Below are positions 1 through 1,117 of a DNA stretch of 64,000 bases, piece after piece. The stretch's first letter is position 1. Every line of letters starts with the position of its first letter. Source of the DNA: Marinobacter nitratireducens (GTDB lineage Bacteria > Pseudomonadota > Gammaproteobacteria > Pseudomonadales > Oleiphilaceae); contig NZ_ANIE01000007.1 of NCBI RefSeq assembly GCF_000708045.1, forward strand, positions 434,001 to 498,000, given 5' to 3'. The notes beneath the pieces were generated by a model. The model was given only the letters and a program-made list of their open reading frames with translations. It was not told the origin of the DNA and did not search any database. A program made the position numbers and the translations under genes.

Positions 1-30
1 AACAGCCTTTAAGAAATTCGCCCAACTCCC

Positions 31-48
31 TGTGAGATATATCCTACA
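31..48. promoter_or_regulatory. Putative GacA/UvrY upstream activating box
   Basis: The 18-base sequence TGTGAGATATATCCTACA is an imperfect palindrome matching the GacA box consensus TGTAAG-N6-CTTACA at 10 of 12 defined positions. A further CTTACA half-site lies at 61-66. It sits about 110-150 bases before the likely start of the GGA-rich RNA, a distance like that seen for activator boxes upstream of rsmZ/csrB genes. The match is seen in the sequence; binding by a GacA homologue is inferred. Confidence 0.6.
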
Positions 49-154
49 ACATTGTGCGAACTTACAGTCCTGAAGCGTGCGCGGGCTCAGCCTGCCCCCA
101 ATTGATTTCGCCTAACCTGTTGATACAGATATTTAATTGAGTAACTGACCATTT

Positions 155-448
155 ACCCACCGGAAACGACGTGCATACGTCACAAGTTTGTAAGGAATCG
201 GCTGGTATATTGTTTTCAGTCAAGGATGACAGGGAAAGGGACGACGCACTGGATGCACCCCGGCAAGGATTAGCAGGGAGAGGCAGGGACACAGGGACGC
301 CTCGCTTTAGGGACAATATTCGGATGGCCGGCTCGGAAGCCGGCACCAGGGAGCGGCATAGGGAACTCGCAACACGGCTGTTGCCCAATGCGCAAGGACG
401 CGCCGACCTGTTTCGATTAGGGTAGCCTCCGGGCTACCCTTTATTTTT
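155..448 (+). ncRNA. CsrB/RsmZ-like regulatory RNA (CsrA/RsmA sponge)
   Basis: Fifteen GGA triplets fall between 194 and 398 (first bases 194, 224, 233, 239, 251, 267, 277, 287, 295, 311, 322, 335, 350, 362, 396), several times more than chance at this base composition. Many are in AGGGA or AAGGA context. One is shown perfectly in a hairpin loop: GCCGGCT (327-333), CGGA (334-337), AGCCGGC (338-344). The stretch ends in a strong intrinsic terminator and has a GacA-like box upstream. RNAs of this family bind and sequester the translational repressor CsrA/RsmA through GGA loops. The 5' end is uncertain: a TTGATA at 120-125 could be a -35 element giving a start near 155, but a start up to about 185 is possible. 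No homology search was possible; the call rests on architecture. Confidence 0.72.
419..448 (+). terminator. Rho-independent terminator of the GGA-rich RNA
   Basis: A 9-bp stem (AGGGTAGCC at 419-427 with GGCTACCCT at 432-440) closes a TCCG tetraloop and is followed by TTTATTTTT. It marks the 3' end of the CsrB-like RNA and lies just beyond the end of the convergent methyltransferase gene. Confidence 0.9.
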
Positions 449-457
449 GCCCGGACC

Positions 458-1117
458 TCACGACGACTCCCCCGCCAGATAGATTCTCACCTGATTAAAT
501 TCCTCGAACTCATTCAGATCCGGCCAGGTACGGGCCTCGATAACGGTCTGCAGGGCGTACCGATCATCGTTCAGGTTTCGGACTCGCGAATCCGCCAACA
601 GCACCCTCGGGGCTGAGGATCGGAACTGCGCCAATAGCGGACGGTTTTCCGGGTCGTAAAGCACATCGGCGGCGGTAATGACGTCGAGATCGTCGGGACG
701 TTTACTCCAGTCTTCACAAAGAGTAACCCGCACACCATTCAGTTCGGCATTGGCGGCCACCGCATCCAGAGCCGCCAGATCGATATCGCAAGCAATCACT
801 TCCCGGGCTCCGGCCTTGGCAGCAGCAATAGCAACGATGCCTGACCCGGCACCGAAGTCCAGAACTGTTCGGCCAGAAACGGATTGAGGATTTTCCAGAA
901 TCCAGCGAGCCAGTACCTGACCACTGGCCCAGCAAAATGACCAATAGGCCGGTTCCGCCACCACCGCCTGGGCCTCATCGTGACTCAGCGGCCCTTCCAG
1001 AACCGAGGGATCAAACAGGTAGAGCGCCAACTGAGGGCAACCCGCCGGCCGGGATTCCGCAACCCGGCCCCGACTGAGGGTTTTCTGTAACTGGGCATCG
1101 AGGCGTTCAGGTGTCAC
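458..1117 (-). CDS. Class I SAM-dependent protein methyltransferase (ETFB/nicotinamide methyltransferase-like)
   Basis: A 219-residue cytosolic protein starting with GTG, preceded by GGAGA about 6 bases upstream. Glycine-rich motif [10 protein letters not shown], is at residues 85-93. An acidic residue ends the next strand (IACDID). The conserved segment [11 protein letters not shown] lies at about 56-66, before the Rossmann fold. That aromatic segment is typical of the COG3897 group, which includes the lysine methyltransferase acting on electron-transfer flavoprotein beta. Substrate is not deducible here. It diverges from selU, with the two starts about 140 bases apart, and ends against the terminator of the GGA-rich RNA. 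Confidence 0.82.

Follow-up and report, generated by a model that had tools for sequence, protein, structure and literature searches.

The locus at the start of the window, by which we mean the whole 64,000-nucleotide stretch analysed, part of contig C7 of the 3.89-Mb Marinobacter nitratireducens genome, reads as the gene for a CsrB/RsmZ-type small RNA that would soak up CsrA/RsmA under a GacA-type switch, and we put the probability of this reading at about 93%. The candidate sponge RNA gene, with what appears to be a csrB/rsmZ-type promoter layout, is conserved throughout the family of Marinobacter, a family of marine bacteria, and would belong to an RNA type that is already well known. The sequence-level features of Csr/Rsm sponge RNAs are present: repeated, conserved GGA motifs, many of them in hairpin loops; a gene that, as far as sequence can tell, is non-coding and has a promoter and a terminator to itself; an upstream palindrome of the GacA/UvrY/SirA type; and csrA/rsmA, gacA/uvrY and gacS/barA in the genome (Table 1). 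The Gac/Rsm-type architecture proposed in the earlier note is supported by the retention of the GGA motifs, compensatory changes in hairpins, a position-locked palindrome, the terminator and the lack of a coding pattern. From the span given there (31-448), the part from about 219 onward stands as the RNA proper, and 31-218 is promoter region, not RNA.

Table 1. Predicted features of the sponge RNA locus (window coordinates) and of a second, sponge-like RNA.
Feature	Position	Strand	Remarks
18-bp palindrome TGTGAGATATATCCTACA, predicted GacA/UvrY-type regulator site	31-48	+	centre about -180 from predicted start
Half-site TGTGCGA	53-59	+	just 3' of palindrome; G54, T55 and G58 ≥90%, A59 ≥80% conserved (56 rows)
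IHF-like site TAACCTGTTGATA	113-125	-	reverse complement fits WATCARNNNNTTR; between box and promoter
Extended -10-like element TGGTATATT, consensus TTGGTATAGT	203-211	+	conserved columns in aligned loci
Predicted CsrA/RsmA-sequestering RNA	219-446 (end ~446)	+	~228 nt, 14 GGA; genus DNA matches, family model R1, alignment A1
Hairpin 1, GUCA-AGGA-UGAC, loop GGA	219-230	+	87.7% of cells paired; no both-side changes
Hairpin 2, GCA-CUGGA-UGC, weakest of seven	246-256	+	81.5% of cells paired; no both-side changes
Hairpin 3, loop GGA	259-278	+	87.8% of cells paired; four pairs with both-side changes
Helix 4, AGGC/GCUU around two GGA	281-307	+	100% of cells paired; one-sided changes only
Hairpin 5, GCCGGC stem, loop GGA	327-344	+	99.1% of cells paired; three pairs with both-side changes
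Hairpin 6, GCAACA/UGUUGC	369-384	+	92.1% of cells paired; two pairs with both-side changes
Hairpin 7, GCGC-AAGGAC-GCGC, loop GGA	390-403	+	93.2% of cells paired; one pair with both-side changes
Intrinsic terminator	419-448	+	9-bp stem 419-440, then U-run TTATTTTT
Second GGA-rich, sponge-like RNA	L073:1766-~1560; G000:C4 from ~154265 downwards	-	box TGTAGGAGATTTCGCACA 74 bp upstream

The first line of evidence is the density and retention of GGA. Positions 160-418 hold 16 GGA, whereas dinucleotide-preserving shuffles average 8.5; since none of 2000 shuffles reaches 16, chance density is rejected. Of all 210-nt stretches in the 64-kb window, both strands considered, the densest lies at this locus (15 GGA), the runner-up being a minus-strand stretch with 13. 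The 15 motifs in about 205 bases that were originally counted do exist, as the GGAs from 194 to 396; the RNA itself carries 14 of them, spanning 224 to 396, and GGA 194 is upstream and unconserved. Twelve of the 14 keep their alignment column exactly in 47-55 of 55 loci; the other two, at 267 and 362, do so in 36 and 31 loci, respectively. GGA 162 and GGA 194, both 5' of the predicted start, hold theirs in 2 of the 55 loci apiece. Relatives have 13-16 GGA before the terminator stem across these 55 loci (counted over the first 200 nt for the two without a terminator).

An extra GGA-loop hairpin precedes the terminator in 11 of the 55 loci (L023, L030, L031, L032, L034, L035, L038, L041, L049, L055 and L056), with the terminator reported beyond the added hairpin for four of them; in these arrangements a hairpin that is likely a CsrA site has been gained or lost as a module. 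In one genome (G026; L053:1197-1510) the RNA is shortened to four GGA and the box at -188 is retained, with neighbours of the same kind as elsewhere (VanZ-like and MnmH matches). This locus is possibly a natural mini-sponge, and two further genomes (G119 and G134) give similarly low scores with our covariance model R1.

Structure was assessed in alignment A1, whose 55 loci underlie the counts above and exclude both the duplicate of the window locus (L057) and the shortened RNA. A structure of seven helices and 33 pairs was set by hand from the aligned sequences and replaces RNAalifold's own structure, which recovered only part of it on A1 (29 pairs, covariation term -1.7). In the hand-set structure 92.2% of cells are paired across the 55 sequences, as compared with 26-51% in a slid-partner control, a comparison that leans toward this structure because it was drawn from the same sequences. 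Ten pairs show changes on both sides; the mean in shuffles is 5.0, and none of 500 shuffles reaches ten. The covariation is mostly in helices 3, 5 and 6, with one such pair in helix 7 and none in helices 1, 2 and 4. In hairpin 3 one of the six pairs is non-standard in 29 of 55 sequences, that of M. nitratireducens included, and the loop of hairpin 6 is CGGC in M. nitratireducens and GGA in some relatives. The perfect 7-bp hairpin with a CGGA loop noticed earlier is present at 327-344 (GCCGGCT-CGGA-AGCCGGC), but its closing T-A pair is unconserved and the other six pairs are kept. Folded singly, the M. nitratireducens sequence has a lowest-energy structure that barely beats shuffles (z -1.55; 15 of 200 shuffles do as well) and differs from the modular one. 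The terminator noted earlier is present, and our script's rule finds one in 53 of 55 loci. The terminator scan means little by itself, since it returns two sites in 1-2000 versus 2.3 expected in shuffles.

The region upstream of the predicted start is organised around the palindrome, which the earlier note had spotted as TGTGAG-N6-CCTACA and which proves to be both conserved and locked in position. The pattern TGTNNGN6CNNACA is exact in 49 of 55 loci, and allowing a single mismatch raises the count to 54. Of these, 53 have it starting between -186 and -190 (about -188 in the window) and one at -199. Another 18 loci were compared, 16 of them from 12 other genera, and the pattern is exact in 17; L204 was left out of these 18, being the same locus as L054. 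The narrower pattern TGTRAGN6CYTACA has its sole match on either strand of the window at this site. The loose pattern is not enriched genome-wide (51 matches vs. 46 in a backwards control), so the box is telling only through its conservation and place. The stop codon of a VanZ-like ORF (window 31-35) falls inside the palindrome, and hence the box overlaps coding sequence. The IHF-like site was added by the present analysis. The IHF consensus, WATCARNNNNTTR, is matched exactly in 22 of 55 loci, with 19 of the matches at -105/-106, against a single-base shuffle mean of 0.66 of 55; an exact match is absent in 33 of the 55 loci and in 16 of the 18 further loci. Among those 18 the IHF-like element has two exact matches as compared with 17 for the box, which is thus far better conserved. 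A simple sigma-70 scan of 1-2000 found no promoter.

The palindrome is assigned by resemblance, and one could therefore suppose that a sponge RNA is indeed encoded but that some other regulator uses this element. We consider this very improbable, as the sequence and spacing of the palindrome fit the UvrY site of E. coli csrB, its sequence also resembles the GacA site, and the genome encodes an equivalog of the UvrY/SirA/GacA family (302.7 bits, cut-off 280). The other partners are present as well: there is one CsrA, an NCBIfam equivalog, and a BarA/GacS-type sensor domain in a 973-aa frame, a domain that among the control genomes only E. coli matches. A receiver-domain match lies 1.5 kb beyond the sensor domain, in a frame likewise of 973 aa.

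The gene neighbourhood is shared between loci. We examined 74 of them, which amount to 73 places because L054 and L204 overlap, and in every one the fetched stretch contains a match to a VanZ-like protein, a methyltransferase or MnmH, or to more than one of these neighbours; this count includes 16 loci from 12 other genera. The VanZ-like protein and the methyltransferase are both present in 51 of 74 loci, and the VanZ-like protein occurs with either the methyltransferase or MnmH in 65. VanZ was named via Pfam (33.0 bits, cut-off 30.1) and MnmH via NCBIfam. This common neighbourhood argues for orthology of the RNA across the family. Alternatively, the GGA-rich segment could be a CsrA-bound 3' UTR belonging to the VanZ-like gene and not an independent sponge, given that the strand is the same and the ORF has its end at window 35. 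We see little room for this explanation: the RNA is framed by a conserved -10-like element, a palindrome at fixed distance and a terminator, the next downstream gene is on the opposite strand, and the VanZ-like match is missing in 7 of 74 loci within the fetched stretch, although a missing match is no proof of absence.

A further rival, in which a small protein is encoded by the 84-aa frame at 171-425 and its codon content accounts for the GGA motifs, has next to no chance of being right. The frame is open from a GTG start, and 27 of 54 relatives show a start codon in the corresponding position, but all 54 carry within it an indel of a length not divisible by three, 51 are interrupted by a stop, 292 of 299 indels shift the reading frame, and the codon positions of this plus-strand frame are about equally conserved (0.82/0.81/0.79). 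With the frame broken in relatives and its codon positions evenly conserved, the small-protein reading is rejected and the frame is best explained as chance, as had been proposed; a coding pattern conserved across relatives, which the earlier note had named as evidence against an RNA, is absent from the alignment.

Having weighed these alternatives, we return to the sponge RNA gene and its distribution. A DNA search with window 1-460 as query gave matches in 56 of 61 genus genomes; we retrieved and aligned the loci from all 56, and 55 loci were kept for counts. The matches fall into two blocks, one at about 8-68 that covers the palindrome and half-site, the other beginning in most genomes at 158-220 and running to about 448; between them the sequence is divergent, yet keeps the TTGGTATAGT-like element (202-211) and the IHF-like site. 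A pattern made from the 5' end of the RNA has 43 matching stretches in the genome collection, 41 of them in Marinobacter, and we took the other two, in an Erysipelotrichaceae MAG and a Lachnospiraceae MAG, as chance. The covariance model R1 comprises 30 sequences and 186 positions; left out of the model alignment A2 were L043, L045, L049 and L054, along with rows at least 90% identical to a kept row. Under stricter filters, which lose weak matches in both the family and the order searches, R1 matches 153 of 163 family genomes, representing 14 of 16 genera, and among 244 order genomes it matches ten of the Marinobacter family and, weakly, one outside it (E 1.2e-4). With these strict filters three genus genomes (G004, G033 and G094) and seven other family genomes have no R1 match. 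G004 is a near-complete, single-contig genome with neither an R1 match nor a DNA match to the second RNA described below.

Three places in the genome carry the AT-core box (the window locus, C4:154320 and an ORF on C9), and the backwards control gives none. The third (G000:C9:132023) was rejected as a sponge promoter, since it lies inside the ORF with at most eight GGA per 210 nt nearby. The second marks the other GGA-rich RNA of Table 1, which is new relative to the earlier note, as is its box at -74. This RNA has 13 GGA in 200 nt, adjoins a gene for a helix-hairpin-helix, ComEA-like protein and is matched by DNA search in 51 of 61 genus genomes; in 30 aligned loci from those 51 genomes the box is exact in 20, and GGA number 11-14. 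We saw no clear U-run terminator there, and R1 scores the second RNA at 21.4 bits, so common descent with the first RNA is possible but not established.

RsmX, RsmY and CsrC, like CsrB and PrrB_RsmZ, have Rfam models. The Rfam search proposed in the earlier note (CsrB and RsmX/Y/Z models) came out negative for the window: cmscan with all 4227 families of release 15 gave no match in the whole window at gathering thresholds and none on the RNA in 1-1200 at E up to 10; RsmX, RsmY and CsrC are covered by this, none of them reaching its gathering score. Nor did Rfam match the loci of six relatives or the second RNA. Permissive matches to RT-3 (window) and rli22 (second RNA) are far below gathering and off the RNAs, and were rejected as known Rfam RNAs. 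CsrB (RF00018) matches none of 19 genomes, M. nitratireducens among them, and does match the E. coli positive control. PrrB_RsmZ (RF00166) stays below gathering and has no match in the M. nitratireducens genome; 15 of 115 order genomes match it at E ≤0.001, three of them over the cut-off, and two control genomes match it below the cut-off. The description CsrB/RsmZ-like thus holds for the kind of RNA and not for a match to those Rfam families. Among the literature matches listed we found no report of a Marinobacter sponge RNA. A 2006 study, which reportedly predicted CsrA-regulating sRNAs, was outside the scope of this search, and we therefore claim no priority for the Marinobacter RNA. The main text of a 2017 prediction paper does not contain the word Marinobacter (PMC5568370).

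We infer the function of the candidate sponge RNA from its anatomy and conservation, and likewise its transcription from a start near 219, CsrA binding, GacA control, binding of the regulator and IHF, and any physiological effect. In the mechanism we propose, the BarA/GacS-type sensor would phosphorylate the GacA/UvrY-type regulator, which would then bind the palindrome, and IHF may bend the DNA between palindrome and promoter. Transcription would start near 218-219 and end at the terminator, yielding an RNA of about 228 nt that could display GGA in hairpin loops and linkers, bind several CsrA/RsmA dimers and, by sequestering them, relieve CsrA control of target mRNAs. The first RNA probably works beside the second. 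Taken further, the Marinobacter group may possess a sponge pair with two promoter designs, a far box with an IHF-like site (-188) and a near box (-74), that parallel csrB/rsmZ and rsmY, with RNA bodies diverged beyond recognition by Rfam; we offer this tentatively, at somewhat less than even odds. If true, the promoter logic of the circuit would predate the sequence of the RNA, and evolution would adjust sponge capacity via gain and loss of GGA hairpin modules, as in the 11 extended loci and the four-GGA miniature. Marinobacter and allied genera include oil-degrading, wax-ester-storing and algae-associated bacteria, and the RNA provides an entry point to Gac/Csr control in these marine genera. 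An alignment and a covariance model are now supplied for an RNA unmatched by Rfam release 15, and the two promoter layouts and natural hairpin gains and losses make the evolution of sponge capacity testable.

How does the Marinobacter RNA compare with known systems, as these are described in the cited passages? Repeated GGA also characterise Csr-type sponges of other marine gammaproteobacteria, Aln1a-c of Alteromonas and Pf1-3 of Pseudoalteromonas (PMC5864184, PMC11882849). Those RNAs have transcriptome or mutant data, whereas the Marinobacter RNA is known from sequence and is likened to them by description; Aln1a-c share one intergenic region, and the Marinobacter pair is on two contigs. With CsrB of E. 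coli and Salmonella the Marinobacter RNA shares many GGA and a far 18-bp palindrome. In E. coli csrB the UvrY palindrome TGTGAGAGATCTCTTACA is centred at -183/-182, close to its predicted place in Marinobacter; a partial repeat lies 5 bp downstream of the inverted repeat and a putative IHF site precedes the promoter (PMC4682653), and Marinobacter likewise has a partial repeat a few bp past the palindrome and an IHF-like site before the promoter. Unlike CsrB with its 22 GGA (PMC11882849), the Marinobacter RNA has 14 and goes unmatched by the Rfam CsrB model. From Pseudomonas RsmZ it differs in that the PrrB_RsmZ model finds no match in M. nitratireducens, and from RsmY, which has 7 GGA, in its larger number of motifs (PMC4950607). 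With RsmZ and RsmY the Marinobacter RNA would share a sponge role and a GacA site, its predicted site resembling the GacA sequence TGTAAG-N6-CTTACA (PMC4950607). The GacA sites of P. aeruginosa lie at -75 for rsmY and -196 for rsmZ, and IHF binds the rsmZ promoter of P. protegens (PMC4950607); the two Marinobacter boxes, one starting at -188 and accompanied by an IHF-like site, the other at -74, resemble the rsmZ and rsmY layouts, respectively.
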